The translations under genes were made by a program, and so were the position numbers. Under the pieces are notes generated by a model, which worked only from the letters and a program-made list of their open reading frames with translations, had not been told where the DNA came from and did no database searches. Source: Flavobacterium pisciphilum (GTDB taxonomy: Bacteria > Bacteroidota > Bacteroidia > Flavobacteriales > Flavobacteriaceae). From it: 64,000 bases of DNA. Of this stretch, positions 310-16,774 are shown piece by piece. How positions within the stretch are numbered: the first letter of the stretch is position 1; each line of letters opens with the position of its first letter. The stretch lies in NCBI RefSeq assembly GCF_020905345.1, contig NZ_JAJJMO010000001.1, forward strand, positions 5,084,001 to 5,148,000. The letters are read 5' to 3'.

Positions 310-327
310 GGCATAAATACCAATATT

Positions 328-3072
328 TTGAAATCAAATCTTCTTAATTTATTTTTCCTCTTTTTTATAACATTTCAAATTCAAGCTCAAGAGTTACTTC
401 CTTTTGTAGAAAATTATAATAAGTCTAATTACGAGGGAGATAACCAAACATGGAGTGTTGCACAAGGGAATGATAATGCAATGTATTTTGCAAACAATCA
501 TTATTTGGTGCGTTATAATGGTGTTGTTTGGGAGAAATATACATTGCCAAACAAAACAATCATTCGTTCAATTATGGTTGATGGTGATAAAATCTATTCA
601 GGATCGTATAAAGAATTTGGTTATTGGTATAGAGAAGATGGAAAAATGAAATACGTTTCTATTTCTAAAAATAGGAGGGTATTTGATGAAAATGAAAATG
701 AAGAGGTTTGGAAAATTTTTAAACTGAATGATTTAATTTATTTTCAATCATTCAATCAGATTTTTGTTTACGACGGAAAATCAATCAAAAAAACGAAGCT
801 ACCATTTTTAATATCTTATTGCTTTATTATCAATAATCGGTTGCTTATAGCTTCTGTTGAACATGGGGTTTTTGTTGTTAATGGAAACAAATTAAATCCT
901 GTAAAAGGTTGGGGAACTTTAAAAAACAATGTCATTCATGCTATTGAAAAGTATCAGAATAAAATATACATTTTTACACATAAAAAAGGAATTTTTGTAG
1001 AAAACAAAGGAAATTTGATTGCTTGGGATAATCCATTAAATGAGGTTTTAAAGAATGCAAATATAAATGTTGCCCGATTTTTAAAAAACAACAAACTTAT
1101 AATTGGTACAGCTGGAGAAGGTGTCTATATGTTTGATTTTAATGATAATTCTTTTAAAAACATCAATAGGAAAAATGTATTGATGAACAATTCTATTTTG
1201 AGTATTGGATTGGATAAAGAAGATGACTTATGGCTAGGTTTGGATAACGGAATAGCTCATATCGAAGTTACATCGCCAGTTTCTATTTTTTATGATAATT
1301 CAGGAATTTTAGGATCGGTATATTCAGTTGTAAACATTGATAAAGGATATTTAATGGCATCCAATCATGGTGTTTTTAAATATGCGGATAAAAAACTTTC
1401 CTTGATTCCTAATAGTCAAGGACAAGCTTGGAATATAAGTAAAGTAGATAATAGATACTTTATTGGTCATAATGAAGGAACATTCTTGTATGGAAACGGA
1501 CAGTTTTCTAAGTTAAACACAACAAATGGGGGATGGAATTTAACCAAAAGTAATATTGGTAATTCTTATTTTCAAGCAACTTATAGTGGCGTTGTTGTAT
1601 ATAAAGATATTAATAACCTAGAACAAAAAGTAGTCTTAAAAGGATTAAGAAAGCCTATAAAATACGTCGCTCAAAACAGAAAAAATGAGGTATGGGCGGC
1701 TGATAATTATAGAGGTTTATATAGAATTTTATATAACGATAATTATGAAACTACAAAAGTAGAAAATGTTACGCAGCACAGTAAAATTGGAAATGACTTT
1801 GGTGTGAAAATATTTGAGTTTAGAAAAGAAATTCTTTTTTTGATAAATAAAACTTGGTACACTTATAATTCGATATCCAATCTTCTGGAAAAGAATGAAC
1901 TTTTTAATTCTAATTTTAATAATATCACAGATGTGGCAGCTATTGATGAAAATCATTTTATCTTATTGCAAGAAGGGCTTTTATATCATATTTATGCAAA
2001 TGGTAATAAATTTATATGGAATAGTATTCAAGAGAAATATTATAAAGGAAAAATCATCAATGACAACCTAAATATATTTAAAAGTAAGAACAACTACTTA
2101 TTGAATTTGGATGATGGTTTTATTTTATTTCAACCCAAAGATATAAATAGCCAAAAATTAGATTTAAAGGTTGAGGCATTCAATGACGAAAACTTAATCG
2201 AAAACAATTCTAGTATAAATTATAATTCAGAATTAAGGATAAATGTAATCTCAGGCCTATTTGGTGCAGCTAAGCCAAATTTATTTTATAAAATTAATGA
2301 TGAGAATAATTTTAGGTCTATAAAAGATGGTTTAATCGTTTTGAATAACTTAAATAGTGGTTCACATGGTATAGAAATTTATAATCATGATGGGCTAAGC
2401 TATAGCAAAATTTCGAGTTTTGATTTTCTTGTTGCAAAGCCATGGTATCTTTCCTATTGGATGCTTTTATTGTATTTGTCTTTTATAGCAGGTATTTTGT
2501 ATATCTATTATAGATGGAATAAGATGCGTTATTTACAAAAACTAGAATTAAGAGAAGAGGAGCTAAGACATCAAAAGGAAATTCTAGAAATGGAATTGAA
2601 AGCAGAGAATGATTTGAATAGTCAAGAGTACCAAAAACATATTCTGGAACTTGAATTGCAAACCAAATCATCAGAGGTTGCTGGTAAATCTCTTTCTATC
2701 GCTAAACAAAGTGAAATGATTGAAAAGATTCAGAGTATTTTAGATTCTGAAACCGACTTTAATAAACTTAAGAGTGAGATTAAAAAAGCTATAAAAATAA
2801 ATGCTGTCAATAAACACGAATGGGAAACTTTTGAAAATAACTTAAATCAAATTCACAATGAATTTGTATCAAATCTTTTGCAAAAATATCCTAGTTTAAC
2901 TTCAAAGGATGTTAAGCTTTGCATTTACTTAAAAATGAATCTTTCTTCAAAAGAGATTGCACCTTTAATGAATATTTCATTTAGAGGAGTAGAACTACAT
3001 CGTTATCGATTAAGAAAGAAATTGAATCTAGTTCAAGATGAAAACCTTTCTAACTTTTTATTAAATCTATAA
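328..3072 (+). CDS. Membrane-spanning beta-propeller/LuxR-HTH regulator (SusC/D activator type)
   Basis: This is a 914-residue sensor-regulator that probably senses a glycan fragment in the periplasm and activates the adjacent susCD genes. In order it shows a signal peptide ending near AQE, repeated two-component-regulator-type propeller blades to about residue 620, a Y_Y_Y-like domain to about 700, one membrane helix at about 706-728 (WYLSYWMLLLYLSF), a coiled coil to about 800, and a LuxR-type helix-turn-helix at about 857-905 (SSKEIAPLMNISFRGVELHR). It has no histidine kinase domain, so it differs from hybrid two-component systems. No ATG is available near the 5' end. I chose TTG 328 over TTG 307 because 307 lies inside the -7 box and the 328 product starts MKSNLLNLFFLFF, a cleaner signal peptide. 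Confidence 0.85.
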   Translation: MKSNLLNLFFLFFITFQIQAQELLPFVENYNKSNYEGDNQTWSVAQGNDNAMYFANNHYLVRYNGVVWEKYTLPNKTIIRSIMVDGDKIYSGSYKEFGYWYREDGKMKYVSISKNRRVFDENENEEVWKIFKLNDLIYFQSFNQIFVYDGKSIKKTKLPFLISYCFIINNRLLIASVEHGVFVVNGNKLNPVKGWGTLKNNVIHAIEKYQNKIYIFTHKKGIFVENKGNLIAWDNPLNEVLKNANINVARFLKNNKLIIGTAGEGVYMFDFNDNSFKNINRKNVLMNNSILSIGLDKEDDLWLGLDNGIAHIEVTSPVSIFYDNSGILGSVYSVVNIDKGYLMASNHGVFKYADKKLSLIPNSQGQAWNISKVDNRYFIGHNEGTFLYGNGQFSKLNTTNGGWNLTKSNIGNSYFQATYSGVVVYKDINNLEQKVVLKGLRKPIKYVAQNRKNEVWAADNYRGLYRILYNDNYETTKVENVTQHSKIGNDFGVKIFEFRKEILFLINKTWYTYNSISNLLEKNELFNSNFNNITDVAAIDENHFILLQEGLLYHIYANGNKFIWNSIQEKYYKGKIINDNLNIFKSKNNYLLNLDDGFILFQPKDINSQKLDLKVEAFNDENLIENNSSINYNSELRINVISGLFGAAKPNLFYKINDENNFRSIKDGLIVLNNLNSGSHGIEIYNHDGLSYSKISSFDFLVAKPWYLSYWMLLLYLSFIAGILYIYYRWNKMRYLQKLELREEELRHQKEILEMELKAENDLNSQEYQKHILELELQTKSSEVAGKSLSIAKQSEMIEKIQSILDSETDFNKLKSEIKKAIKINAVNKHEWETFENNLNQIHNEFVSNLLQKYPSLTSKDVKLCIYLKMNLSSKEIAPLMNISFRGVELHRYRLRKKLNLVQDENLSNFLLNL

Positions 3073-3132
3073 AACATCTTATTTTTTTAGAGATAATATA
3101 TTATTTAACTTTTATTTTTATCAAATTGCAAT

Positions 3133-3168
3133 ACATCATTACTACATCAACATGATGTAGAGTGATGT
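3133..3168 (+). terminator. Long hairpin with TGATGTA repeats, terminator and/or operator
   Basis: The perfect arms CTACATCA (3142-3149) and TGATGTAG (3153-3160) are extended by ACATCA (3133-3138) and TGATGT (3163-3168), making a roughly 16-pair stem with a small internal asymmetry. It is followed by TTTTTTATTTTG, so it can end transcription of the regulator gene. The TGATGTA unit recurs at 3226-3232 nearer susC, so an operator role is also possible. Confidence 0.6.
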
Positions 3169-3277
3169 TTTTTATTTTGTGTAAGTGCTTTTAAATCATT
3201 AATTTAATGTGGTATTTATGCCTTTTGATGTATTCATGTAGTATTTCTATTTAACGTACTATAACGTTGTAATTATC

Positions 3278-3285
3278 TAAGTTTG
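3278..3285 (+). promoter_or_regulatory. -7 box of susC
   Basis: TAAGTTTG matches TAnnTTTG and would start transcription about 25 bases before the susC ATG. An inverted repeat, AACGT (3253-3257) with ACGTT (3264-3268), sits just upstream where a -33 box would be expected. That would suit a promoter that needs an activator. Confidence 0.55.
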
Positions 3286-3314
3286 ACGAACTAACTTTAA
3301 CAATTTATTAATAT

Positions 3315-6300
3315 ATGAGAAATCTTATTTTTAGCTTATTAGCGCTCATTCTACTTCCAGCGTATATGTCTGGTCAAGTAATTAAAGGTAAGGTTTTGGA
3401 TTCACAAGGCATGGCAATTCCAGGAGCAATGGTAGTAGCTACAGAATCTAGAACTTCAACTGACACAGATTTTGATGGTAATTTTGAACTTAAGGGCAAA
3501 ATAGGAGAGCCATTAAAAATTAGCATGGTTGGGTTTGAAGCAGTAACGATAAACTCAACTTCAACTCCTATGAGTATAGTTTTGAAAGAATCTGAAGATA
3601 CAGCTTTAAAAGAAGTTGTTGTTATTGGATATGGAACAAGAAAGAAAGTTGATAATACTTCGGCTGTAAGTTCAATCAAATCGGAAGAAATTACTAAAAT
3701 GAAAGTATTGAATGCTTCTCAAGCAATACAAGGTAAAGCAGCTGGGGTTCAGGTTTCAGCTTCAGATGCACCAGGAAGTACACCTTCGATTGTGATTAGA
3801 GGTATTGGTACAGCATTAGGAGGAAGAAGTCCTTTATATGTTGTAGATGGTATGCCAACGGAGAATATCAATAATATCAATACAAATGATATTACTTCTT
3901 ATGAAATTTTGAAAGATGCTTCTGCACTTGCTATCTATGGTACAAGAGGAGCTAATGGTGTAATTATGATTACAACCAAAACAGGAAAAGGAAAACTTAC
4001 TGTTGAGGTAGAGAGTTTTACAGGTTTTAGAACTCCTTTGAAAAAAGTAAAAATGGCTAGTAGTGAAGAATATGCTCGTTATTCAAATCCTACTTACCTA
4101 AAAGACTATCCAGATGGAAGATTTTCGGCTAATCAGCCTTATAATACAAATTGGTTAGATGAAATTACTAGAACAGGATCATACACTCAAAATAATCTTG
4201 CTATTTCAGGGGCTTCAGAGAATATAAAATACTTTTTTAGTGTAGGTAATTATGAAGAAAAAGGTATTTTGAATGGAACGGAATATGGACGTACAACTAT
4301 TAGAAATAATAATGAATTTAAAATTTCTGATAGACTTAAATTAACTCAAAATTTTAGTGTAAGTACTATAAAAAATACACCTAAACCTTTAAGTGCATTT
4401 TCTTCAGCTTATAGACAATCTCCTATAGTTCCAGTACGTTTCCCTAGTGGAAAATATGGAGTTGCATTTGATTCAAATGGAGTTGCTTCAGAGAGCGGAA
4501 AGTCATTTAATAATGTTGGAAATCCAGTAGCTCAGTTAGATTATAATAATGAGAAACAGCAAAGTATTATTTTGCAAGGAGGGTTAAAATTAGATTATGA
4601 AATTAGTAAATCATTAAAATTTACTTCTCAATTTAACGGAGAATCATATTCTTACAAGCAATATAATTATGTTGATAATGTAGCTATTTGGTTAGCGGCA
4701 GAACCTTCTCGTGTAGAGTCAGGGTATCCTTCAAGTTTAAATAAAAATACATTAACAAGAACTAGAGAGGATTATTTTAATTGGAACTTATCGAATTACT
4801 TAACATATAACAAGGTTTTTGGTAACATTCATGATATTGAGGTTACTGCTGGTATGGAATCTAATGTGATAGGAAGTAGAGAGAAGTTAACAATTGATAG
4901 AAAGAATGTAGATCCAAATTCTAATTATTGGTCTATAAAAGGGATTAATTCTGCTAGTTCAATAACAGGTTATAAAGATGAAGCTTCTAATGAAAGAAGA
5001 TTAGCATCTTATTTTGGACGTTTCCAATACAAATTAATGGACAGGTATTTACTTACTGGTACTGTAAGACGTGATGGATCATCTCAATTTGCTAAAGACA
5101 AACGTTGGGGAACATTTCCTTCAGTTGGTTTAGGATGGGTAGTATCTAAAGAAAGTTTCTTAAGTAATGTAGAAACAATTAATTTATTAAAATTAAGAGG
5201 TTCTTGGGGTAGATTAGGAAATCAAAATGTACCACTTAATTCACAGTCATTCACTTCAGGAGTAGATGTACCTGGTTTTGGTTCTGGTATAACAATTAAT
5301 TCACAAGTAGATCCTAATTTGTCTTGGGAAATTGTAGAAGAGCTTTCAGCAGGTTTTGACTTTGAAATATTAAACAATAGATTAAAAGGATCTTTTGATT
5401 TGTATGATAAGAATACAACAAATGCAATTTTGAATGTTTTACCATATGCGACTTCAGGATTAAATTTATCTACACCTATACACGTTGGAGAAGTATCTAA
5501 TAAAGGATATGAAATTGCATTGCGTTGGGATGACAAAATAAATGATAATTTGAGCTATTGGGTAGGTGGTAACTTTTCTCATAATAAAAACAAACTTGCA
5601 AGTCTTTCAAATCCTCTAATTGCTGCTACTACTGGTGGAGATTTAGGGAATGGTGAAAATGTTAAGTATCTTGATTATAGTTCAATAGGAAGACCTTTGG
5701 GAAGTTTTTATATGTATGAATATGCAGGTATTGACCCAGCAAATGGTGATATGTTGTATTATAAGGCAGATGGAAGCAAGGTTAAACAACAATTATTAGA
5801 CGAAAGACTTGATAAAAAATATGTAGGTTCAGTATTACCAAAAATTAATTACGGTATTAGTTTAGGATTGAATTATAAAAATATTGATTTTTCTGTTGAC
5901 GGTTATGGTACAGGAGGAGCAAAAGTATACAATGGTAAAAAAGCACAACGATTTGGAGGAGATAATATTGAGTCTTCTTTAACTAATAATTTTTGGACAC
6001 CAACAAATACAACAGCTTCAAATCCAGCACCTTTTAATCAGATTCCAAAAGCTTCGACTTATTACCTAGAATCAGCAGATTTCTTTAGAATCAACAACAT
6101 TACTTTAGGATATAAACTTCCTCTAAAAGAGGATCAGTTTATTAGTTTTTGTAGATTATATGTAAATGCAATTAATCCGTTTATTACACAAAAATTCTCA
6201 GGTTTTTCACCTGATGTTGTAGGAGATGGTAACCCAGTTAGTGGTAATCAAGGGGTAGAGTTAGATGCTTACCCATCATTGAGATCATTTGTTATAGGCG

Positions 6301-6317
6301 CTAATTTAAAATTTTAA
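3315..6317 (+). CDS. SusC/RagA-family TonB-dependent outer membrane transporter
   Basis: This 1000-residue protein imports oligosaccharides across the outer membrane using TonB energy, with SusD as its lid. It has a signal peptide (MRNLIFSLLALILLPAYMSG), a carboxypeptidase-D-like N-terminal domain at about 22-95 (IKGKVLDSQGMAIPGA), the SusC signature VVVIGYGTRKK at about 101-111, a plug domain with PLYVVDGMPTENI and YGTRGANGVIMITTKTGKG, and a long beta-barrel ending in a C-terminal aromatic strand (LRSFVIGANLKF). susD starts 4 bases after its stop. The substrate cannot be read from the protein; the GH144 and GH3 neighbours suggest a beta-1,2-glucan. Confidence 0.95.
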   Translation: MRNLIFSLLALILLPAYMSGQVIKGKVLDSQGMAIPGAMVVATESRTSTDTDFDGNFELKGKIGEPLKISMVGFEAVTINSTSTPMSIVLKESEDTALKEVVVIGYGTRKKVDNTSAVSSIKSEEITKMKVLNASQAIQGKAAGVQVSASDAPGSTPSIVIRGIGTALGGRSPLYVVDGMPTENINNINTNDITSYEILKDASALAIYGTRGANGVIMITTKTGKGKLTVEVESFTGFRTPLKKVKMASSEEYARYSNPTYLKDYPDGRFSANQPYNTNWLDEITRTGSYTQNNLAISGASENIKYFFSVGNYEEKGILNGTEYGRTTIRNNNEFKISDRLKLTQNFSVSTIKNTPKPLSAFSSAYRQSPIVPVRFPSGKYGVAFDSNGVASESGKSFNNVGNPVAQLDYNNEKQQSIILQGGLKLDYEISKSLKFTSQFNGESYSYKQYNYVDNVAIWLAAEPSRVESGYPSSLNKNTLTRTREDYFNWNLSNYLTYNKVFGNIHDIEVTAGMESNVIGSREKLTIDRKNVDPNSNYWSIKGINSASSITGYKDEASNERRLASYFGRFQYKLMDRYLLTGTVRRDGSSQFAKDKRWGTFPSVGLGWVVSKESFLSNVETINLLKLRGSWGRLGNQNVPLNSQSFTSGVDVPGFGSGITINSQVDPNLSWEIVEELSAGFDFEILNNRLKGSFDLYDKNTTNAILNVLPYATSGLNLSTPIHVGEVSNKGYEIALRWDDKINDNLSYWVGGNFSHNKNKLASLSNPLIAATTGGDLGNGENVKYLDYSSIGRPLGSFYMYEYAGIDPANGDMLYYKADGSKVKQQLLDERLDKKYVGSVLPKINYGISLGLNYKNIDFSVDGYGTGGAKVYNGKKAQRFGGDNIESSLTNNFWTPTNTTASNPAPFNQIPKASTYYLESADFFRINNITLGYKLPLKEDQFISFCRLYVNAINPFITQKFSGFSPDVVGDGNPVSGNQGVELDAYPSLRSFVIGANLKF

Positions 6318-6321
6318 TAAT

Positions 6322-7782
6322 ATGAAAAGATTATATATATCAATATTTGTACTTTCTGGATTATTCTTTTCTGGATGCGCAAATGATTTTCTAGATGTAG
6401 ATCAAACTGAGACACTTCCAGATGATCCAAGTCTAATAAATAATGATGAAGGAGCTAAAAGTTTAGTGACAGCAATCTACAATCAATTTTTAAGCTGGGA
6501 TATGTCATCTTTTGGTTGGATTGCAGTATCAAGTATCATTTCAGATGATGCAGATAAAGGTTCAGATCCTGGAGATACAGGAGTAGACAAAGATATTATC
6601 GATGGATTAACTTATAATGCTTCAACTCCATCATTCCAATCTGTTTGGAATGCTAATTATGTAGGGATAAATAGATGTAATCAAGCTTTGTTATTTTTTC
6701 CAAAGTTAGATAAAGTAACACCAGCTTTGAAAACTAGATTAGAAGGTGAAGCTAAGTTCATGAGAGCTTTTATGTACTTTACTTTAGTAAAAGGATATGG
6801 AGGGGTGCCTATTATTGATCATCCACCAATTCCAGGTTCAGATGCAGACAGAACAATGCAATTGACACGTAGATCAGCAGCAGAAGTGTATGCCTTTATT
6901 GAAAAAGACTTAAATGATGCAATAACAAATTTACCTGATAGATCAACTTACGGACCAGAAGATAAAGCTCGAGTTTCTAAAGGTTCTGCTTATGCTTTAT
7001 TAGCAAAAGTAAATCTATATCAAAAAAATTGGCAAAAAGTTATTGATAATTGCGATAAAGTAACAGGATATAGCCTAGTTTCAGATTATGCTTCTATGTA
7101 TAAAAAAGAAGGAGAATTTGGATCAGAATCTATTTTTGAAATTAATGGAGTAGGATCTACTTCTAGTCCAGGATTCGGAATTGCTAATTATACTGCTTCA
7201 CAATCTCCACGTGGTACAGGTGGATGGGGTTGGGGTTTCAATACACCATCTGAAGGATTAGCAAAAGCTTATGAAGTTGGAGATGTTAGAAAAAATGCAA
7301 CTATTATTTTTAGAGGGTCTACATTGTATGATGGTAGAGTAATTCCTGCTACTGTAGCTAACGCCATGTATAACTATAAAGCATATTCATCTGATTTCTA
7401 TAACCAAGAGTTTACAGATACCAATCTTAGATATTTAAGATATGCTGAAGTTTTATTAATGAAAGCTGAGGCGCTAAACGAAGTAGGGCAAACAGCAACA
7501 GCTATTCCTTTATTAAATCAAGTTCGTCAAAGAGCAGGGTTAGGTATTACACCAGCTGTATCTCAAGATGATGTTAGAAAAGCAATCTGGAAAGAAAGAA
7601 GAGTAGAGTTGGCTTTTGAGCATGATAGATGGTTTGACCTTGTAAGAACTGGTCAAGCAGAAGCAGCTATGGCAGCAGATGGAAAAACTTTTATTGTAGG
7701 AAAACATGAATTATTTCCTATTCCAAATTCATTCTTAAGAGAGGCATCAGGTCTTTCACAACAAAACCCAGGAGGTTACTAA
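6322..7782 (+). CDS. SusD/RagB-family surface glycan-binding lipoprotein
   Basis: The 486-residue product begins with a lipoprotein signal (LSGLFFSGCAND), so it should be acylated and surface exposed as the lid of the SusC transporter. TPR-like SusD helices are visible, including EGEAKFMRAFMYFTLVKGYGGVPII and the C-terminal RAGLG...WKERRVELAFEHDRWFDLVRTG block that marks the family. The protein ends in the usual FPIPNSF...QNPGGY tail. It lies directly after susC and before a terminator, so susCD probably form the high-expression core, with some read-through into the enzyme genes. Confidence 0.95.
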   Translation: MKRLYISIFVLSGLFFSGCANDFLDVDQTETLPDDPSLINNDEGAKSLVTAIYNQFLSWDMSSFGWIAVSSIISDDADKGSDPGDTGVDKDIIDGLTYNASTPSFQSVWNANYVGINRCNQALLFFPKLDKVTPALKTRLEGEAKFMRAFMYFTLVKGYGGVPIIDHPPIPGSDADRTMQLTRRSAAEVYAFIEKDLNDAITNLPDRSTYGPEDKARVSKGSAYALLAKVNLYQKNWQKVIDNCDKVTGYSLVSDYASMYKKEGEFGSESIFEINGVGSTSSPGFGIANYTASQSPRGTGGWGWGFNTPSEGLAKAYEVGDVRKNATIIFRGSTLYDGRVIPATVANAMYNYKAYSSDFYNQEFTDTNLRYLRYAEVLLMKAEALNEVGQTATAIPLLNQVRQRAGLGITPAVSQDDVRKAIWKERRVELAFEHDRWFDLVRTGQAEAAMAADGKTFIVGKHELFPIPNSFLREASGLSQQNPGGY

Positions 7783-7798
7783 AAAATAGAATACCAAA

Positions 7799-7838
7799 AA
7801 TCACTTCCTTCAACTCTGGAGGAAGTGATTATTTATTA
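7799..7838 (+). terminator. Terminator between susD and the enzyme genes
   Basis: AATCACTTCC (7799-7808) pairs with GGAAGTGATT (7821-7830) around a 12-base loop. The T-run is interrupted (ATTTATT), so it may only attenuate transcription into the glycosidase genes. Confidence 0.65.
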
Positions 7839-7856
7839 ATTGCATAAATTTTTATA

Positions 7857-9230
7857 ATGATTAGAATTTCAGTTTTATTAATCTCTTTTGCTTTTTTTGG
7901 TTGCGGTTCTAATGCTGACAAATCAAAAGATAGTGCAACAGTGACTTCAGAAGTTGTAAAACTAACGGATGAAGAGCTTGTTGAAGTAGTGCAAAAACAA
8001 ACTTTTAAATATTTTTGGGATTATGCCGAACCAAATTCGGGCTTGGCGAGAGAGCGTTATCATCCTGATGGGGTTTATCCCGAAAATGATGCTAATGTTG
8101 TTACAACCGGAGGTTCTGGTTTTGGATTAATGGCGATAGTGTCTGGAATGTCAAGAGGATACATTACAAAGAAAGAAGGTGTTGATAGACTTAATAAAAT
8201 TGCTGATTTCTTGGACAAAGCTGACCGTTTTCACGGAGCTTGGTCACATTGGATAGATGGAAATACAGGAAAAGTAAAGCCGTTTGGAACTAAAGATAAT
8301 GGAGGAGATTTAGTTGAGACTTCATTTTTGGTTAGTGGAATGATTACAGTTCGTGAATATTTAAAAAATGGTTCAGATACTGAAAAAGCAGTTGCTAAAA
8401 AATATGACGCACTTTGGAAAGGTGTAGATTGGAAATGGTATACTAATAACAAAAATGTATTGTATTGGCATTGGTCGCCTACCTACGATTGGCAAATGAA
8501 CTTTCCTCTAGAAGGATATAATGAATGTTTGATTACTTATATATTGGCAGCAGCTTCGCCAACACACCCAATTACACCGAAAGAATACCACGAAGGTTGG
8601 GCAAGAAACGGAGGAATAGTTTCGACTAAATCGAAATATAACATTCCTCTGGTTTTAAAGCACAATGGAGCCGAAGAATATGGAGGTCCTTTATTTTGGG
8701 CACATTATTCTTATGTTGGACTAGATCCAAATCAGTTAACCGATAAGTATGCTAACTATTGGGATTTAAATGTAAATCACGTAAAAATTGATTATGAGTA
8801 CTGTGTAGAGAATCCTAAGAAATATAAAGGATATGGCCCAGATTATTGGGGACTAACAGCATCATATTCTAGAAACTCAGATGGAACTACAGGTTACAAT
8901 GCACATATGCCAAGTAACGATGTAGGAGTTATTGCTCCAACAGCAGCAATAAGCTCAATTGTTTATACACCAAAAGAGTCTATTGCGGTAATGCGTAATT
9001 TATATGAAAATCACAAAAAAGATGCTTGGGGAGTAGCTGGATTTTATGATGCAAGTAGCCTACAATATGGATGGACAGCTCAACGCTATTTGGCGATAGA
9101 TCAAGGCCCAGAAGTAGTAATGATAGAAAACTATCGTACAGGTTTATTATGGGAATTATTCATGAATGCTCCAGAAGTAAAACAAGGGTTAATAAACTTG
9201 GGTTTTCACTCAGGTAAATACGGATTCTAG
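7857..9230 (+). CDS. Glucoamylase-like family protein, probable GH144 beta-1,2-glucanase
   Basis: The 457-residue product has an N-terminal lipoprotein signal (LISFAFFGCGSNAD) and an (alpha/alpha)-type glycosidase domain from about residue 38. FKYFWDYAEPNSGLARERYHP, GGSGFGLMAIVSGMSRGYI, GTKDNGGDLVETSF and EGYNECLITYILAAASPTHPI are hallmarks of the glucoamylase-like family that includes GH144 endo-beta-1,2-glucanases and sophorose-releasing enzymes. Conserved acidic residues that could act in catalysis are D147, D151, E154, E219 and E223; I cannot assign the pair with certainty. The lipoprotein anchor puts it in the outer membrane or periplasm. With GH3 downstream it should cut beta-1,2-glucan to sophoro-oligosaccharides. 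The GH144 assignment rests on family memory, not on a search. Confidence 0.8.
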   Translation: MIRISVLLISFAFFGCGSNADKSKDSATVTSEVVKLTDEELVEVVQKQTFKYFWDYAEPNSGLARERYHPDGVYPENDANVVTTGGSGFGLMAIVSGMSRGYITKKEGVDRLNKIADFLDKADRFHGAWSHWIDGNTGKVKPFGTKDNGGDLVETSFLVSGMITVREYLKNGSDTEKAVAKKYDALWKGVDWKWYTNNKNVLYWHWSPTYDWQMNFPLEGYNECLITYILAAASPTHPITPKEYHEGWARNGGIVSTKSKYNIPLVLKHNGAEEYGGPLFWAHYSYVGLDPNQLTDKYANYWDLNVNHVKIDYEYCVENPKKYKGYGPDYWGLTASYSRNSDGTTGYNAHMPSNDVGVIAPTAAISSIVYTPKESIAVMRNLYENHKKDAWGVAGFYDASSLQYGWTAQRYLAIDQGPEVVMIENYRTGLLWELFMNAPEVKQGLINLGFHSGKYGF

Positions 9231-9242
9231 AACAGCCTTACA

Positions 9243-9944
9243 ATGAAGTATAAATTAGCAGTGACAGCTCTATTGTTTTCAATCATTTCTTTTGCTCAAA
9301 CAATTGTAAATGGGAATATGAAAACCGAAATCATTCAAAAACATGAACTAGGGTACGCATTGCATATTCCAGCAAGTATAAAAGAGAAAAAACCATTGCT
9401 AATTTTTCTTCATGGTTCAGGCGAAAAGGGAACCGATATTGAAAAAGTAAAAATTCACGGTCCATTTAAGTATTTAAAAGATCACAAACTAGATGCATAT
9501 GTTCTTGCTCCACAATGCCCGGAGAATGAAGAATGGGATGCAGAAGTTTTATACCGATTGATTTTAAAAATCCAGAAAGAGAATAATATCGATTCAGATC
9601 GAATTTATGTTACTGGGCTAAGTTTAGGAGGTTGGGGAACATGGAATCTAGCTTTTGCACATCCAGATATGTTTGCAGCAATTGTGCCTATTTCAGGATT
9701 TGTAGATTTAATTCAGTTAGAACAAACCTGTAAAATAGCAAAGATTCCAACACGAATTTTTCACGGATTAATGGATGATGTCGTGAATATAGATTATGCG
9801 ATTACAATTTATAAGGAATTAAAAAAATGTAATAGCAATGTAGAATTGACCATTTTTGATGATGCAGGTCATGATAGTTGGTCGAGAGTATATGACAACC
9901 AGCAAATTTATGACTGGATGTTCAAACAAGTAAGAAATAAATAA
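9243..9944 (+). CDS. Secreted alpha/beta-hydrolase, probable esterase
   Basis: This 233-residue protein has a signal peptide ending at SFAQ and a compact alpha/beta-hydrolase fold of the prolyl-oligopeptidase or PHB-depolymerase-like type. The oxyanion-hole region LIFLHGSGEKG, the nucleophile elbow GLSLGG (Ser127), an acidic residue at 178/179 (GLMDDVVN) and His210 (DAGHDSW) make a complete triad. It sits 12 bases after the glucanase and 10 before the GH3 gene, so it belongs to the glucan operon. An ester-removing role, for example on succinylated or acetylated glucan, is an inference from context. Confidence 0.8.
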   Translation: MKYKLAVTALLFSIISFAQTIVNGNMKTEIIQKHELGYALHIPASIKEKKPLLIFLHGSGEKGTDIEKVKIHGPFKYLKDHKLDAYVLAPQCPENEEWDAEVLYRLILKIQKENNIDSDRIYVTGLSLGGWGTWNLAFAHPDMFAAIVPISGFVDLIQLEQTCKIAKIPTRIFHGLMDDVVNIDYAITIYKELKKCNSNVELTIFDDAGHDSWSRVYDNQQIYDWMFKQVRNK

Positions 9945-9954
9945 AACCCATAGA

Positions 9955-12255
9955 ATGAAAAACAAATTAGTAATACTCTTTTTAGGATGTACTTTTTTGA
10001 GTTATGCTCAAAAGAAAGAAGCCAAAAAAACTGTAAAGATTAAGCCAAGAACAGAGTTTGTTTCAGAGTTGATGTCAAAAATGACAGTAGACGAAAAAAT
10101 CGGACAGTTAAATTTACCTACTTCAGGAGATATAACAACTGGTCAAGCTAATAGTTCTAATGTTGCTAAAAATATTGAAGAAGGCAAAGTAGGTGGATTA
10201 TTCAATATTAAATCAGTTAAGAAGATAAAAGAAGTACAAAGGATTGCAGTAGAAAAAAGCAGATTAAAAATTCCATTGCTTTTTGGTATGGATGTTATTC
10301 ATGGTTACGAGACTACTTTTCCTATCCCTCTAGGATTATCTTGTATTTGGGATATGAAATTGATTGAAAGAAGTGCTCAAATTGCTGCAAAAGAAGCTAG
10401 TGCTGATGGTATTAACTGGACTTTCTCACCTATGGTAGATATCTCTCGTGATCCACGTTGGGGTAGAGTTTCAGAGGGATCAGGAGAAGATCCGTTTTTA
10501 GGTAGCGAAATTGCAAAAGCAATGGTAAATGGATACCAACAAAATGATCTTTCAAAAAACAATACGCTATTATCATGTGTAAAACATTTTGCTTTATATG
10601 GTGCGCCAGAAGCAGGACGTGATTACAACACAGTAGATATGAGTAAAATAAGAATGTATAATGAGTATTTCCCTCCTTATAAAGCAGCTGTAGATGCAGG
10701 TGTAGGTTCAGTTATGGCATCATTTAATGAAGTTGATGGAATCCCAGCAACTGGAAGTAAATGGTTAATGACAGATGTTTTAAGAAAAGAATGGGGTTTT
10801 AAAGGATTTGTTGTTACAGATTATACAGGAATTCCAGAAATGATTGACCACGGAATGGGTGATTTGCAAACTGTATCAGCATTAGCTTTAAATGCAGGTG
10901 TTGAGATGGATATGGTAGGAGAAGGATTCCTTACTACATTAAAAAAATCATTGGCAGAGAATAAAGTAAGTATGGAACAATTGGATAATGCGGTGCGTCT
11001 TATCCTTGAAGCAAAATACGATTTAGGATTGTTTGAAGATCCATATAGATATTGTGATGATAAAAGAGCTAAAACTGAAATTTTCACAACAAGCCATAGA
11101 GCCGAAGCAAGAAAAATTGCTTCTCAATCATTGGTTTTATTGAAAAATCAAAATCAGATTTTGCCTTTGAAAAAATCAGGAACTATTGCAGTAATCGGAC
11201 CATTGGCAGATGCTAAAGAAAACATGCCAGGAACTTGGAGTGTTGCTACAAACATGAATACAGCTATTTCATTATTAACAGGAATCAAAGAAGTTGCAGG
11301 TAAATCGACAAAAGTGCTTTATGCAAAAGGAAGTAACTTAGATTACGATGCAGCATTTGAGGAAAAAGCAACAATGTTTGGTAAAACATTACACCGTGAT
11401 AACAGAACTAAAGAAGAATTACTTGCTGAAGCTTTAAAAGTAGCTAATCAATCGGATGTAATTGTAGCTGCAATTGGAGAATCTGCTGAGATGAGTGGAG
11501 AAAGCAGCAGTAGAACTAATTTAGAAATTCCACAAGCGCAAAAAGATTTATTACAAGCATTATTAAAAACAGGAAAACCAGTTGTTTTAGTTTTATTTGA
11601 TGGTCGTCCATTAGTAATAAAAGAAGAGAACGAAACAGTTCCAGCTATTCTTAATGTTTGGTTTGCAGGAAGTGAAGCAGGATATGCAATTGCAGATGTT
11701 TTGTTTGGAGATGAAAATCCTTCAGGAAAATTAACTTCAACATTCCCAAGAAACGTAGGACAAGTGCCTATTTATTATAACCAAAAAAATACAGGAAGAC
11801 CACTTTTAAACAAAGAAGGGAAATTTGAAAAATTCAGATCAAACTTTATAGATGAAAGAAACGAGCCTTTATTCGCTTTTGGTTATGGATTAAGTTATAC
11901 AACTTTCGACTATTCAAACTTAAAAATTTCATTTGATAAAATGAATTTCAACGGAAAACTAAATGTTACTGTTGATGTTACAAATACAGGGAATTTTGAT
12001 GGTAAAGAAGTAGTACAATTGTACATAAGAGATTTAGTAGGTTCAGTTACAAGACCAGTAAGAGAACTTAAAGGTTTCCAAAAAATACACCTTAAAAAAG
12101 GTGAAAAACAAACTGTGAATTTTGAAATTTCAGTAGAAGATTTGAAATTTTATAATTCAAATTTAAAATTTATTGCAGAGCCAGGCCAATTCGACATATT
12201 CGTAGGTGGAGACTCTAATGCAGACAAGAAAGTTAGTTTTGAGTTAATCAATTAA
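9955..12255 (+). CDS. GH3 beta-glucosidase (BglX-like), probable beta-1,2-glucosidase
   Basis: The 766-residue protein has a signal peptide (LFLGCTFLSYAQ), an N-terminal TIM-barrel GH3 domain, an alpha/beta sandwich domain and a C-terminal fibronectin-III-like domain from about residue 665. Asp289 in FVVTDYTG is the expected nucleophile, and Glu516 in MSGESSSR is a good acid/base candidate. The length matches periplasmic BglX-type enzymes. In beta-1,2-glucan loci of Bacteroidota a GH3 of this kind releases glucose from sophoro-oligosaccharides, which fits the GH144 neighbour. Other beta-glucoside linkages remain possible. It is the last gene before a strong terminator. Confidence 0.92.
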   Translation: MKNKLVILFLGCTFLSYAQKKEAKKTVKIKPRTEFVSELMSKMTVDEKIGQLNLPTSGDITTGQANSSNVAKNIEEGKVGGLFNIKSVKKIKEVQRIAVEKSRLKIPLLFGMDVIHGYETTFPIPLGLSCIWDMKLIERSAQIAAKEASADGINWTFSPMVDISRDPRWGRVSEGSGEDPFLGSEIAKAMVNGYQQNDLSKNNTLLSCVKHFALYGAPEAGRDYNTVDMSKIRMYNEYFPPYKAAVDAGVGSVMASFNEVDGIPATGSKWLMTDVLRKEWGFKGFVVTDYTGIPEMIDHGMGDLQTVSALALNAGVEMDMVGEGFLTTLKKSLAENKVSMEQLDNAVRLILEAKYDLGLFEDPYRYCDDKRAKTEIFTTSHRAEARKIASQSLVLLKNQNQILPLKKSGTIAVIGPLADAKENMPGTWSVATNMNTAISLLTGIKEVAGKSTKVLYAKGSNLDYDAAFEEKATMFGKTLHRDNRTKEELLAEALKVANQSDVIVAAIGESAEMSGESSSRTNLEIPQAQKDLLQALLKTGKPVVLVLFDGRPLVIKEENETVPAILNVWFAGSEAGYAIADVLFGDENPSGKLTSTFPRNVGQVPIYYNQKNTGRPLLNKEGKFEKFRSNFIDERNEPLFAFGYGLSYTTFDYSNLKISFDKMNFNGKLNVTVDVTNTGNFDGKEVVQLYIRDLVGSVTRPVRELKGFQKIHLKKGEKQTVNFEISVEDLKFYNSNLKFIAEPGQFDIFVGGDSNADKKVSFELIN

Positions 12256-12281
12256 TTGGTTGGTTAGATTGATTCGTGTTT

Positions 12282-12316
12282 GGCCCTTCGTATTGGTTTC
12301 GAAGGGCCTTTTTTTT
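12282..12316 (+). terminator. Terminator of the glucan operon
   Basis: GGCCCTTCG (12282-12290) pairs perfectly with CGAAGGGCC (12300-12308) around a 9-base loop, followed by eight T. Confidence 0.92.
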
Positions 12317-12441
12317 AACTTAAAATTTATTTTTTAAGATATTTAGTTCTTAGTCAGATATGATAAAACATAGTAGTTTCTAAAGAAACGCTACATCTAT
12401 TAATTTTTTAGAATAATTATAAACCTTAAAATTTCTATATA

Positions 12442-13224
12442 ATGAATGCTATTAAAATATTCCCTGCATTTTTGATGCTAATGATATTTGTATTTACTTC
12501 TTGTAATGTCACAAAAAATGGTATTGTTGCACATCGTGGAGCATGGAAAAAAAATAATTTACCAGAAAACTCAATTGCTGCTCTTAGACACGCTATAGAT
12601 TTAAAAGCTGTAGGTTCAGAATTTGACGTTGTTATGACAGTCGATGACTCACTTGTGATAAATCATGATCCACATTATAATAACTTAATTGTTGAAGAAA
12701 CTAAATATGCAGACTTAATCAAGTTTAAACTTTCTAATGGAGAGAAACTACCAACTTTGAGAGAGTATATTATAGAAGGGAAAAAGAATAATAAGCACAC
12801 TACTTTGGTATGCGAAATAAAACCTTCAGGAGTAAGTAAAGAGAGAGGAAAAAAAATTGCTTTAAAAGCAGTTGAGATAGTTAAAAGTCTTAATGCAGAA
12901 AAGATAACTTCATATATCAGTTTTGATTATGAAATACTGAAACAAATTAGAGAAGTAGATTCTAAAACTACATTGCAATATTTGGAAGGAAATAAATCTC
13001 CAAAAGAAGTAAAACTAGATAATATAACAGGTGTTGATTATCATTATTCAGTTTTTAGAAAATACCCAAATTGGATTAAAGAAGCAAAGGATAATAAGAT
13101 AACTTTAAATGTCTGGACAGTTAATGATGTTGTTGATATGGATTGGATTATTGAAAATAATTTTGACTATATCACAACCAATGAACCAGAGTTGTTAAGT
13201 GAAAGAATAAAGGTTAAAAAATAG
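12442..13224 (+). CDS. Glycerophosphodiester phosphodiesterase family lipoprotein
   Basis: The product has 260 residues with a lipoprotein signal (MIFVFTSCNVTK). The GDPD TIM-barrel motifs are present: AHRGAW with His31, ENSIAALRHAI, SEFDVVMTVDDSLVINHDP with His75, a conserved CEIKP and the C-terminal VWTVND...TTNEPELL. These enzymes hydrolyse glycerophosphodiesters to glycerol-3-phosphate and an alcohol, using a divalent metal. The gene lies 186 bases after the glucan operon and 32 bases before the GH43 gene, with which it probably forms an operon. A role on phosphoglycerol groups of glucans is possible but inferred; ordinary phospholipid scavenging is the conservative reading. Confidence 0.9.
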   Translation: MNAIKIFPAFLMLMIFVFTSCNVTKNGIVAHRGAWKKNNLPENSIAALRHAIDLKAVGSEFDVVMTVDDSLVINHDPHYNNLIVEETKYADLIKFKLSNGEKLPTLREYIIEGKKNNKHTTLVCEIKPSGVSKERGKKIALKAVEIVKSLNAEKITSYISFDYEILKQIREVDSKTTLQYLEGNKSPKEVKLDNITGVDYHYSVFRKYPNWIKEAKDNKITLNVWTVNDVVDMDWIIENNFDYITTNEPELLSERIKVKK

Positions 13225-13256
13225 ATTTCTTTTAAATCTTATTTGTAAAATTTAAA

Positions 13257-15191
13257 ATGATGAAAAATAGATATAAACTGTATTCAATAGTGCTTTTACT
13301 GCTTTTGGTAGGATGTAAAATTCATACATCTGAATCAAAAACTAATCTTTTAGGAAAGACCGAATGGTTTGATCCAAATAAACGGGCATCAACATATTGT
13401 AATCCGATAAATATTGGATACAATTACACCACTGAAAATCATAACAGAATTCCTGAATCCCGTCGTTCGAGTGCCGATCCTGTAATTATCACTTATAAAG
13501 GGGAATATTATTTATTTGCTACAAATCAAGCAGGATTCTTTTGGAGTAAAGATATGTCTAACTGGGAATTTGTTTACGGAAGTTTTCAAAGACGACCAGC
13601 CGACGATGATCAGTGTGCACCAGCAGCTTGGGTAGTAAATGATACCTTATTTTATGTAGGATCCACATGGAAGAAAGATCACCCAGTTTGGAAAACGGCT
13701 GATCCAAAATCAGGTAGATGGTTGAGACATGTTGATACAGCAATGTTACCAACTTGGGATCCAGCAATTTTTCAGGATGATGATAAAAAAGTATATATGT
13801 ACTATGGTTCAAGCGGGAAATTACCACTTGTAGGAACCGAAGTAGATTATAAAACATGGTTACCAGTAGGGAATCAGGCAGATTATGCAAAACTGTATGC
13901 AGCAACTGAGGTAGAAGACATTCAGCGTCCGTATGGAGAGATAAAAGAGGTGGTGGGCTTAGATCCTGCAAATCATGGTTGGGAGCGCTTTGGGCCTAAT
14001 AATGATATGGAACCAGCGCCTTGGGGAGATTTTATTGAGGGAGCTTGGATGACCAAACATAACGGAAAGTATTATATGCAATACGGAGCTCCAGCTACTG
14101 AGTTTAAAGGGTATGCCAATGGGGTGCATGTAGGAGACCATCCTTTAGGTCCATTTGTTTACCAAAAACACAACCCGATGTCATATAAACCAGGAGGATT
14201 TGTAATAGGAGCAGGGCACGGAAATACGTTTGCTGATAATTATGGTAATTATTGGAATACAGGAACATGCAAAATATCAATAAAAGACCGGTTTGAGCGC
14301 CGGATTGATATGTTTCCAGCAGGATTTGATAAAGATGATGTAATGTACTCTATCACATCGTATGGAGATTTTCCAATAGTACTACCAACAAAACAACGAG
14401 ATCAGACCAAAGGAGCCTCATCAGGATGGATGTTACTTTCGTATAAAAAGCCAGTAACGGTTTCGTCATCAGAAGAATGCATGGAGGTTCAAACGCATAG
14501 GGTAGACAATGGAGGAAAAAAAGTATTTGAAAAAATATGTTACGATGCTAAAAATCTGACAGATGAGAATATTCAAACCTATTGGTCTGCAAAAACGAGT
14601 AATTCAGGAGAATGGTTGCAACTGGATTTAGGTAGAAAAATGCAAGTAAATGCTTTGCAAATAAACTATGCCGATCATAAAGCGACACAATATAATAAGG
14701 CAATGGATATTTATTATCAGTATAAGATATTTATGTCAGATGATGCTATAAATTGGACTTTGGTAGTAGATAAGTCACAGAATGATAAAGATGTACCACA
14801 TGATTACGTAGAATTAACAAAACCCATTAAGGCTCGTTATATAAAAATGGTAAACATACATAATGCTTCAGGATTGTTTGCTGTGTCAGATTTTAGAGTT
14901 TTTGGAAATGGATTATTAGAAAAACCAAAACCAGTTTCAGAATTTAAAGTTGATAGAAGTTCTAAAGATAGCCGTAATGCAATGATACAATGGAAACAAC
15001 AACCAGATGCAATAGGGTATAATATTTATTATGGAATTACACCTGATAAATTGTACAACAGCATTATGGTTTACGATGAAAGCACTTATGATTTCAGAGG
15101 TTTAGACAAAGGAACTAATTACTATTTTACTATTGAAGCTTTTAATGAGAATGGTATTAGTCTGAAAAATGAAATTATTGAAGTTAAATAA
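13257..15191 (+). CDS. GH43 glycosidase with discoidin (CBM32-like) and FnIII domains
   Basis: This is a 644-residue lipoprotein (LLLLVGCKIH). A five-bladed GH43 propeller covers about residues 60-400, with the expected triad visible as Asp74 (SSADPVI), Asp168 (TWDPAIF) and Glu261 (IEGAWM). A discoidin/F5-8C domain at about 400-560 (NIQTYWSAKTS, LQLDLGRKMQVNALQI) should bind sugar, and a FnIII domain closes the protein. Known activities of the family are arabinofuranosidase, xylosidase and galactosidase; I cannot tell which applies. It starts 32 bases after the phosphodiesterase gene. Confidence 0.88.
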   Translation: MMKNRYKLYSIVLLLLLVGCKIHTSESKTNLLGKTEWFDPNKRASTYCNPINIGYNYTTENHNRIPESRRSSADPVIITYKGEYYLFATNQAGFFWSKDMSNWEFVYGSFQRRPADDDQCAPAAWVVNDTLFYVGSTWKKDHPVWKTADPKSGRWLRHVDTAMLPTWDPAIFQDDDKKVYMYYGSSGKLPLVGTEVDYKTWLPVGNQADYAKLYAATEVEDIQRPYGEIKEVVGLDPANHGWERFGPNNDMEPAPWGDFIEGAWMTKHNGKYYMQYGAPATEFKGYANGVHVGDHPLGPFVYQKHNPMSYKPGGFVIGAGHGNTFADNYGNYWNTGTCKISIKDRFERRIDMFPAGFDKDDVMYSITSYGDFPIVLPTKQRDQTKGASSGWMLLSYKKPVTVSSSEECMEVQTHRVDNGGKKVFEKICYDAKNLTDENIQTYWSAKTSNSGEWLQLDLGRKMQVNALQINYADHKATQYNKAMDIYYQYKIFMSDDAINWTLVVDKSQNDKDVPHDYVELTKPIKARYIKMVNIHNASGLFAVSDFRVFGNGLLEKPKPVSEFKVDRSSKDSRNAMIQWKQQPDAIGYNIYYGITPDKLYNSIMVYDESTYDFRGLDKGTNYYFTIEAFNENGISLKNEIIEVK

Positions 15192-15255
15192 TTATAGATT
15201 CTATTTTTTCAAAAAACGTACAGGAAAATGTAGAAGAGTTACAAAGAAATTTGTT

Positions 15256-15263
15256 TATTTTTG
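15256..15263 (+). promoter_or_regulatory. -7 box of the M28 peptidase gene
   Basis: TATTTTTG matches TAnnTTTG; the predicted transcript would carry a leader of about 40 bases. Confidence 0.45.
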
Positions 15264-15311
15264 AAACTAAAACTTTTTTAAGTTAACTAACTTCAAAACG
15301 CTATATAACCA

Positions 15312-16691
15312 ATGAAAAAAACATCCTTATTAACCTTATTACTTTTAAGTGGTTTGCTGTCATACGCACAAACACCAGATGAAAAGAATATTAAATTAAT
15401 TTACAAATCAGCTTTAACAAATTCTAAATGTTATACATGGTTAGAATACCTATCTAATGATATTGGAGGTCGTTTGTCTGGTTCAACAAACGCTGCTGAA
15501 GCAGTTCAGTACACAAAAAATCAATTAGAAAGTATTGGTTTAGACAGAGTATATCTTCAAGAAGTAATGGTACCACATTGGGTTCGCGGAGAAAAAGAAA
15601 CTGCTTATATTTTAAACAATAAAATAAAAACAGAAGTGCCAATTACAGCATTGGGAGGTTCGATTGCTACACCAAAAACAGGAATTACTGCAGAGGTAAT
15701 CGAAGTAAAAGGGATTAAAGAACTAAATGAACTTGGAGCTAAAGTAAAAGGTAAGATAGTATTCTTTAATAGACCGATGGATCCTGAAAATGTTGAAACC
15801 TTTAAATCATACGGAGGTTGTGTAGATCAAAGATATGCTGGAGCAAAAGAAGCAGCTAAATTTGGAGCAGTGGGAACAATTGTACGTTCGATGAATTTAA
15901 GACAAGATGATTTTCCACATACTGGAGCGCAAAGTTATGGTGATTTGCCAAAATCAGAATACATACCAACTGCTGCAATAAGTACCAATGGAGCAGATTT
16001 ATTAAGTAAATCTTTAAAGAGCAATCCAAATTTAACGTTTTACTTCAAACAGTCTTGTGAGACATTACCAGATGTATTGTCGCATAATGTAATTGGAGAA
16101 TTGAAAGGAACAGAGAATCCAGGAAATATTATGATTGTTGGCGGACATCTTGATTCTTGGGATTTAGCCGACGGTTCACATGATGATGGTGCAGGAGTAG
16201 TACAAAGCATGGAAGTAATACGTATTCTTAAAAATTTAGGGTATAAACCTAAAAACACTATCCGCGTTGTCTTGTTTATGAACGAGGAAAACGGAGGAAA
16301 AGGTGGAGCGATGTATGAAGAAATGGCACAAAAAAATAAAGAGAATCATATTTTTGCATTAGAGAGCGATTCAGGAGGATTTAGCCCAAGAGGGTTTTCT
16401 TTTGAAACAGATGATGAAAATTTCAAAAAAATAGAAAGTTATAAAAGTTTATTTGAGCCTTATTTAGTTCATAGTTTTGTAAAAGGGCATAGTGGGTCAG
16501 ATATTGGACATTTAACCTCTAAAACGCTTGTTAAAGCTGGTTTGAAGCCAGATTCACAACGTTACTTTGATTATCACCATGCAGCCAATGATAAATTTGA
16601 TGCAATAAACAAAAGAGAACTAGAATTGGGAGCTGCAACAATGGCTTCATTGGTGTATCTTATTGATCAAAATGGAATCTTAACCAAATAG
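15312..16691 (+). CDS. Secreted M28-family zinc aminopeptidase/carboxypeptidase
   Basis: The 459-residue protein has a signal peptide ending at SYAQ, a protease-associated (PA) insert at about residues 120-240, and an M28 catalytic domain. The dizinc ligands and catalytic Glu are readable in GGHLDSWDLADGSHDDGAG, NEENGG, ESDSGG and FDYHHAANDKFD. The overall layout resembles plasma glutamate carboxypeptidase/aminopeptidase Q-type enzymes. It has its own promoter and terminator and is probably unrelated to the glucan locus. It should act in the periplasm or outside the cell. Confidence 0.9.
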   Translation: MKKTSLLTLLLLSGLLSYAQTPDEKNIKLIYKSALTNSKCYTWLEYLSNDIGGRLSGSTNAAEAVQYTKNQLESIGLDRVYLQEVMVPHWVRGEKETAYILNNKIKTEVPITALGGSIATPKTGITAEVIEVKGIKELNELGAKVKGKIVFFNRPMDPENVETFKSYGGCVDQRYAGAKEAAKFGAVGTIVRSMNLRQDDFPHTGAQSYGDLPKSEYIPTAAISTNGADLLSKSLKSNPNLTFYFKQSCETLPDVLSHNVIGELKGTENPGNIMIVGGHLDSWDLADGSHDDGAGVVQSMEVIRILKNLGYKPKNTIRVVLFMNEENGGKGGAMYEEMAQKNKENHIFALESDSGGFSPRGFSFETDDENFKKIESYKSLFEPYLVHSFVKGHSGSDIGHLTSKTLVKAGLKPDSQRYFDYHHAANDKFDAINKRELELGAATMASLVYLIDQNGILTK

Positions 16692-16734
16692 TCTATTTCC
16701 CTTTTTTGTAAATAACAAAAACCACTTAATTTAA

Positions 16735-16774
16735 ATGCCCCAAAAAGGATACAACTTTTTTGGGGCATTTTTTT
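16735..16774 (+). terminator. Terminator after the M28 peptidase
   Basis: ATGCCCCAAAAA (16735-16746) pairs with TTTTTGGGGCAT (16757-16768), followed by T7. Confidence 0.9.

Follow-up and report, generated by a model that had tools for sequence, protein, structure and literature searches.

A glycerophosphodiester phosphodiesterase gene in a beta-1,2-glucan locus of Flavobacterium pisciphilum and its possible role in removing glucan decorations

Introduction

What does a glycerophosphodiester phosphodiesterase (GDPD) do beside the glucanases of a glycan utilization locus? The question is raised by positions 9243–13224 of a 64,000-nucleotide stretch of Flavobacterium pisciphilum DNA (genome 5.46 Mb), referred to as the window, where genes for an esterase-like hydrolase, a glycoside hydrolase of family 3 (GH3) and a GDPD follow one another. 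An earlier note on this DNA proposed that these genes serve the degradation of decorated osmoregulated periplasmic glucans (OPGs). In E. coli these glucans consist of a beta-1,2-linked backbone branched through beta-1,6 bonds, to which succinyl groups as well as phosphoglycerol and phosphoethanolamine derived from phospholipids are attached (PMC3818809; here and below, cited articles are represented by excerpts). The same three substituents are given in PMC11842490, where the modified positions are said not to be identified, and a 6-(glycerophospho)-glucose moiety is mentioned for OPG in PMC3357500.

In this report we describe the GDPD as an accessory of GH144 loci, which has its usual place there in a part of the genus Flavobacterium and is rare elsewhere. 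The locus itself is very likely a Bacteroidota beta-1,2-glucan utilization locus of the GH144 type. That the GDPD acts in it as an accessory decoration-removing enzyme, with the phosphoglycerol of OPG-type glucans as its likeliest target, is a reading to which the comparison of genes and neighbourhoods lends about an even chance.

Results

The genes form a single plus-strand locus (307–16770) in the order regulator, SusC, SusD, GH144, esterase, GH3, terminator, GDPD, GH43 and M28, so that the main glucanase, GH144 (7857–9230), sits immediately upstream of the coordinates under study. The features on which the argument rests are:

3315–6317, plus strand: SusC-type TonB-dependent outer-membrane transporter (TIGR04056, 747 bits, cut-off 368)
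6322–7782, plus strand: SusD-type glycan-binding lipoprotein (PF07980, 6.8e-35)
7857–9230, plus strand: predicted GH144 endo-beta-1,2-glucanase (PF10091, 5.2e-80), with a lipoprotein-like signal read by eye
9243–9944, plus strand: putative alpha/beta-hydrolase esterase, 233 aa (PF02230, Abhydrolase_2, 7.7e-16)
9955–12255, plus strand: predicted GH3 beta-glucosidase of the BglX type, 766 aa (Glyco_hydro_3, 2.3e-74)
12282–12316, plus strand: intrinsic terminator in the GH3/GDPD gap (9-bp stem, 9-nt loop, then T8)
12442–13224, plus strand: GDPD, 260 aa, proposed glycan-decoration phosphodiesterase (PF03009, 7e-25), with a lipoprotein-like signal

Among solved structures, those closest to the GH144 protein are 5gzk/5gzh (613 bits), which we take to be the endo-beta-1,2-glucanase CpSGL of Chitinophaga pinensis. 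The motifs DLVETSF (E154) and GYNECL (E223) are identical to those of 5gzk, with both acidic residues kept. Residue E142 of CpSGL is named in PMC11842490; equating it with E154 presumes that the PDB chain carries a tag of 20 residues. With 956 bits (cut-off 666), the GH3 protein is accepted by the BglX model. It matches the structures 3u48 with 1185 bits and 5xxl, titled 'Periplasmic beta-glucosidase', with 1104 bits, the latter presumably being BT_3567, the B. thetaiotaomicron enzyme for beta-1,2-glucans. The existence of a B. thetaiotaomicron beta-glucosidase for these glucans is stated in PMC11842490. Roles in backbone cutting and glucose release may thus be assigned to GH144 and GH3 by homology to characterised enzymes. 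Many of the 20 GH144 loci fetched outside the genus follow the plan SusCD-(LamG)-GH144-...-GH3, and GH144 polysaccharide utilization loci (PULs) for beta-1,2-glucan are described as abundant (PMC6499787).

What the earlier note had said of the gene content agrees with these data: the glucanases of a beta-1,2-glucan locus are present (GH144 and GH3, with SusCD upstream), and the esterase-like hydrolase and lipoprotein-type GDPD beside the glucanases are found as open reading frames (ORFs) with Pfam matches on the plus strand. The terminator and the 186 bases that it placed between GH3 and GDPD were likewise recovered, by measurement of the gap and detection of the 9-bp stem with T8. The GH43 gene that follows the GDPD and the M28 gene behind it do not figure in the note.

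The GDPD protein matches PF03009 with 89 bits, the curated cut-off being 23.6. It remains below the NCBIfam equivalog cut-offs of PRK09454 (56 vs 264 bits) and PRK11143 (36 vs 254), presumably UgpQ and GlpQ, and judged by these cut-offs it is an equivalog of neither. Residues H31, R32, E60, D62, H75 and E125 are invariant in 15 of 15 aligned rows, and matching catalytic and calcium residues are described for GlpQ in PMC7086022. An export signal is predicted. A cysteine directly precedes the mature domain in 52 of 57 readable named orthologs and is absent in five (58 in total, the start of L101 being unresolved), which suggests that lipid anchoring is common, not universal.

The best solved relative, 7ww4/7wwc, aligns over residues 22–257 of the window protein (E 2e-75) and is a Pedobacter terrae protein in which the GDPD is N-terminal and is followed by a GH16-type part at the C-terminus; it was crystallised with laminarin, without publication, according to PMC12448869. 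Four ORFs of the GDPD family were counted in the F. pisciphilum genome; the matches number five, two falling within one 400-aa frame. Of the other three ORFs, one (L179, C1:2508500-2528400) is situated about 2 kb away from a GH97-like gene and shows no evident export signal. For strain IR1, PMC9131120 shows a GDPD within a region of the starch type.

Linkage of GDPD to the GH144 locus was followed in 150 genomes of the genus, with at least 70% GDPD identity as the threshold for an ortholog. Such an ortholog is present in 26 genomes, that of the window included, and its place is between GH3 and GH43 in every one of them, about 3–4 kb from GH144 (25 loci read, and the window). In six more genus genomes, which belong to a sample of the order, a GDPD is near GH144 by coordinates. 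A named scan took the best 80 of 558 GDPD relatives, chosen by GDPD similarity and overlapping the 150-genome sample. Among these 80, 58 are from Flavobacterium (one titled 'Flavobacteriaceae bacterium'), with GH144 and GH3 upstream in 58/58 and GH43 downstream in 57/58 (L082 ends after GDPD).

Seen from the side of the glucanase, the genus has 67 PF10091 matches in 61 genomes. The 55 loci analysed comprise 26 with GDPD, 17 with GH97 after GH3 and 12 with neither, and none has both. This count omits L045, L046, L059 and L065 (dropped as contig-end cuts), L072–L076 (outside SusCD loci), the fragments L077 and L078 and the partial match G104. L065 is actually complete from SusC through GH3 and GH43, without GDPD or GH97, and its inclusion gives 26, 17 and 13 of 56; in L045 a 699-aa ORF occupies the GH97 slot. 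One GDPD-less GH144 locus, L052, retains a 33-residue remnant of the GDPD C-terminus (13812–13910, 85% identity), which probably marks a loss of the gene.

Loci with GH97 after GH3 and no GDPD include L043, L050, L053 and L055, that of L043 being Pfam-confirmed. The GH97 enzyme could cut alpha-linkages, e.g. those of alpha-1,6-cyclised beta-1,2-glucans. Mutual exclusion of GDPD and GH97 was considered as a rule of the genus and set aside: the count holds, the test on independent pairs had too few events, and two non-genus loci (L151 and L152) carry both genes. Genes of the EEP family were detected by BLAST in or near the GDPD-less GH144 loci L048, L064, L166 and L173, as a possible alternative phosphodiesterase.

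Relatives of the GDPD were also found in other glycan loci. With a GDPD-GH16 fusion as query, the 120 listed of 901 homologs comprise 114 GDPD+GH16 proteins, five GDPD+EEP proteins (P0055, P0062, P0081, P0083 and P0104) and one GDPD alone, the query and the length filter favouring fusions. GDPD-GH16 fusions are also encoded at L032, L034, L137, L140, L146, L147, L157 and L158, and in L032, L137, L147 and L157 an EEP gene comes after the fusion. L034 (330–9304) reads, on one strand, SusC, SusD, GDPD/GH16, GH3, a GlpD-like gene, an FGGY kinase and MIP, the fusion and GH3 being separated by about 1 kb in which no ORF is listed. It would represent a glucan locus continuing into glycerol-catabolism genes, as a single case; the start of L140 resembles it, and the glycerol genes are absent there.

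GDPD genes are further present in N-acetylglucosamine (GlcNAc)-type loci (L033, L138, L153, L154 and L155, of which L033 and L153 share a contig and L154 is near-identical). In L033 (3617–15068) the GDPD stands beside genes for a SASA esterase, a NagB/PIG-L protein, a GH2 glucosaminidase-like protein and GH20. In 20 of the 22 remaining loci of the best 80, GH or SusCD genes are near the GDPD (none in L141 and L150); as the BLAST queries behind this figure were partly taken from GDPD neighbours, it is not an unbiased rate. The GDPD subfamily thus often accompanies glycan breakdown, and not that of one particular glycan.

Discussion

In the mechanism that we propose, SusCD would import beta-1,2-glucan or its fragments, GH144 would cut the backbone and GH3 would liberate glucose, and the glucosidases would be relieved of blocking substituents, of acyl and glycerophosphoryl type, by the esterase and GDPD. 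The periplasmic GDPD of the feeding bacterium would free glycerol phosphate and so open the chain to GH144 and GH3, after which periplasmic dephosphorylation would yield glycerol for use by the cell. A constitutive phosphatase, PafA, is known in F. johnsoniae (PMC8812569), and in the F. pisciphilum genome a MIP gene adjoins a GlpK-like gene outside the locus; since a phosphatase of the PafA type and MIP/GlpK-like genes exist, the released products could be used.

The view of the GDPD as a decoration-removing phosphodiesterase for glucans appears well motivated because of its conserved neighbourhood, export signal, intact catalytic residues and relatives fused to glucanases. Phosphoglycerol of OPGs is the best candidate for its target.

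Several observations weigh against this assignment, and they are given here together with the alternatives on which they bear. As many as 29 of the 55 analysed genus loci have no GDPD. On the GH3 tree the GDPD pattern takes five changes, for which a single gain with a few later losses is the simplest account, and because this history fits, the genomes outnumber the independent events behind them. Among non-genus genomes of the order sample, GDPD-GH144 linkage was found in 0 of 37 having both genes; this sample took GDPDs at E ≤ 1e-38 only, and in many drafts the genes lie on different contigs. In the class sample, one of 48 non-genus GH144 genomes has GDPD beside GH144 (G680, locus L159) and 47 have none; the 48 were drawn from 60 genomes with a PF10091 match, and the 12 omitted matched only weakly, almost always within frames that are long or partial. 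In G722 a weak PF10091 match in a 1958-aa frame, with a GDPD about 9 kb away, was not counted as a GH144 locus. With 1/48 and 0/37, linkage as a general rule of Bacteroidota was rejected.

The cases found elsewhere differ in layout. In a Chitinophagaceae metagenome-assembled genome (MAG) the order is SusC-SusD-LamG-GH144-GDPD-(one gene)-GH3 (L142), in a Chitinophagales MAG it is SusC-SusD-LamG-GH144-GDPD-GH3 (L149), and in these two and L159 the GDPD directly follows GH144, an order other than that of Flavobacterium. On the GDPD tree, the nine genus orthologs included (of 26) form one clade (100/100), and L142, L149 and L159 group with three GDPDs of GH3-containing loci (93/89, which is below the level at which a branch is taken as firm). 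That Flavobacterium and other lineages recruited the GDPD independently was considered and set aside: the gene orders differ, yet the test does not reject (p 0.249) a single clade comprising the GDPDs of Flavobacterium and the others linked to GH144/GH3, a further point on the unfavourable side. To the same side belong the close GDPD relatives in beta-1,3-glucan and GlcNAc-type loci, because of which this type of GDPD is not OPG-specific, and the GDPD of the same genome near a GH97-like gene.

The conserved terminator, too, groups the GDPD with GH43 and apart from GH144-GH3. Packing is tight in the upstream part of the locus, with gaps of 4 bases (SusC-SusD), 12 bases (GH144-esterase) and 10 bases (esterase-GH3), and wider between GH3 and GDPD (186 bases), so that the nearest partner of the GDPD is the GH43 gene, 32 bases downstream across a terminator-free gap, with the M28 peptidase next. 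A terminator scan with a loop limit of 8 misses the GH3-GDPD terminator, whose loop is 9, and it was found by reading and by our own script. With our own pattern, run on two overlapping sets and without a shuffle control, it is present in 68 of 82 genus loci, and in five of the printed misses the ORF start is over-extended and the gap shortened; the same pattern gave a terminator in the GDPD-GH43 gap in 0 of 82. No Flavobacterium-type promoter (motif TTG/TANNTTTG) was found in the GH3-GDPD gap. A terminator before GDPD and none before GH43 would imply that GDPD-GH43 expression relies on read-through or on a promoter that escaped recognition, and this pattern appears neither to prove nor to exclude co-induction of GDPD with GH144-GH3.

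These data bear on an alternative in which the GDPD is a general periplasmic glycerophosphodiesterase, engaged in phospholipid headgroups or phosphate scavenging, which settled in the locus once and was then inherited. The single gain in the genus, the terminator that sets the GDPD apart, its absence beside most GH144 genes elsewhere and the neighbourhood of L179, from which adjacency of a GDPD and a GH gene appears possible without an evident link, are all in line with it. However, it has to face the presence of such GDPDs among glucan genes of other lineages, in other gene orders, the covalent fusion of relatives to GH16 and the three other GDPD ORFs of the genome. In addition, in the low-phosphate table of F. 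johnsoniae, as excerpted from PMC8115612, none of six phosphodiesterases is PF03009, which is relevant if F. johnsoniae has an ortholog. We consider this alternative unlikely.

The remaining features of the locus are:

307–3072, plus strand: regulator with two-component-regulator propeller repeats and a LuxR-type helix-turn-helix (TTG start; the true start may differ)
7799–7830, plus strand: terminator-like stem in the susD/GH144 gap (14 pairs, 5 GC), a possible attenuator within the operon
13257–15191, plus strand: GH43-like enzyme with F5/8 type C and fn3 domains (profile match)
15312–16691, plus strand: M28-family peptidase, end of the locus (profile match)
16733–16770, plus strand: terminator closing the locus (16 pairs)

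The regulator scores 23.3 bits with GerE, slightly below the cut-off of 23.5, and 21 bits with Reg_prop (cut-off 20.4); a regulator precedes SusC in most genus loci. A BLAST relative of the M28 gene is present in 38 of 57 genus loci.

The same spacing raises the idea that GDPD, GH43 and M28 serve some other glycan or a glycoprotein, as a separate module adjoining a beta-1,2-glucan operon. The terminator and 186 bases before GDPD and the 32 bases after it would fit, and the usual substrates of GH43 families are pentosides or galactosides. Against this stand GH43 relatives (45–52% identity) in 7 of 20 non-genus GH144 loci, five of them between GH144 and GH3, and because of this recurrence GH43 appears to belong with GH144. 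A separate module is, in our opinion, very improbable.

The chemistry of the target adds the last points on the unfavourable side. Strict specificity for sn-glycerol-3-phosphoryl groups is described for characterised GlpQ enzymes (PMC7086022), and the phosphoglycerol of OPGs is sn-1, derived from phosphatidylglycerol (PMC3818809, PMC3357500), so either the GDPD subfamily differs from GlpQ or its substrate is another. In the latter case, the enzyme might remove another phosphodiester (phosphoethanolamine, phosphocholine or glycerophosphate of a glucan of other source) from the same imported beta-1,2-glucan. Phosphoethanolamine is indeed borne by OPGs (PMC3818809, PMC11842490), relatives are fused to GH16 of the beta-1,3-glucanase type, whose substrates are not E. 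coli-type OPGs, and EEP-family enzymes are found beside or fused to this type of GDPD. On the other hand, the mechanism proposed for GlpQ employs the free C2 hydroxyl of glycerol (PMC7086022), and the GlpD-like, FGGY kinase and MIP genes of L034 point to glycerol. Such another substituent seems quite improbable to us.

As regards acyl groups, the esterase has the nucleophile motif GLSLGG of a serine hydrolase and an export-type N-terminus, read by eye; its best solved relatives, 3doh and 3wyd, indicate a moderate likeness to esterases. Its relatives in 7 of 20 non-genus GH144 loci make an acyl decoration of the glucan a plausible target, and removal of succinyl groups specifically is a guess.

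In sum, the OPG reading of the earlier note holds in so far as the locus is one for beta-1,2-glucan and the GDPD is tied to it by position; a strict OPG role is opposed by the rare non-genus pairing, the terminator grouping and the relatives in other glycan loci. The note had named a lack of co-occurrence in other genomes as what would speak against it; association of GDPD with GH144/GH3 loci was found throughout a part of the genus and at L142, L149 and L159, and it is lacking in 47 of 48 non-genus class genomes with GH144 and in 37 of 37 non-genus order genomes having both genes.

A broader proposal, possible but rather doubtful, is that the GDPD subfamily is a dedicated Bacteroidota glycan phosphodiesterase, which would strip glycerophosphoryl groups from bacterial or other beta-glucans ahead of the glycosidases, as a standalone enzyme where the locus is for beta-1,2-glucan and joined to GH16 where it is for beta-1,3-glucan. 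If OPG phosphoglycerol were its target, the subfamily would have to take sn-glycerol-1-phosphoryl groups, the reverse of GlpQ, and would act as the degradative counterpart to OpgB. The proposal would offer a possible use for the unexplained GDPD domain fused to laminarinases, a widespread type of fusion. OPGs are made by many Gram-negative bacteria, and the defined GDPD-bearing gene set makes recycling of decorated OPGs testable. The accessories of GH144 loci (GDPD, GH97, EEP and the marine sulfatase) may report the decoration of environmental beta-1,2-glucans.

Comparison with known systems

The locus is of a known kind, the GH144 beta-1,2-glucan PUL, in a variant with GDPD as accessory for which the literature search gave no description. 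In the excerpts searched, neither GDPD in OPG utilization nor the recycling of decorated OPGs by other bacteria was described.

The Pus loci of F. johnsoniae (PMC8115612) resemble it in having a SusCD-like transporter beside phosphodiesterases or phosphatases; according to the excerpts they differ in that they have no CAZymes, are induced by phosphate depletion and have no PF03009 among their phosphodiesterases. With GlpQ and UgpQ the window GDPD shares PF03009 and the corresponding His, Arg, Glu and Asp residues, but scores far below their equivalog cut-offs. The 'beta-1,3(4)-glucanase' 7ww4/7wwc of Pedobacter terrae has a similar GDPD domain, which is fused to GH16 there and stands alone beside beta-1,2-glucan genes here. 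The locus also resembles the GH144 PULs of Bacteroidetes, including their marine form (PMC6499787), which share SusCD, GH144 and a lineage-variable accessory that would remove a decoration; in the marine form, as excerpted, this accessory is a sulfatase, whereas here it is a GDPD, accompanied by GH43 and an esterase.

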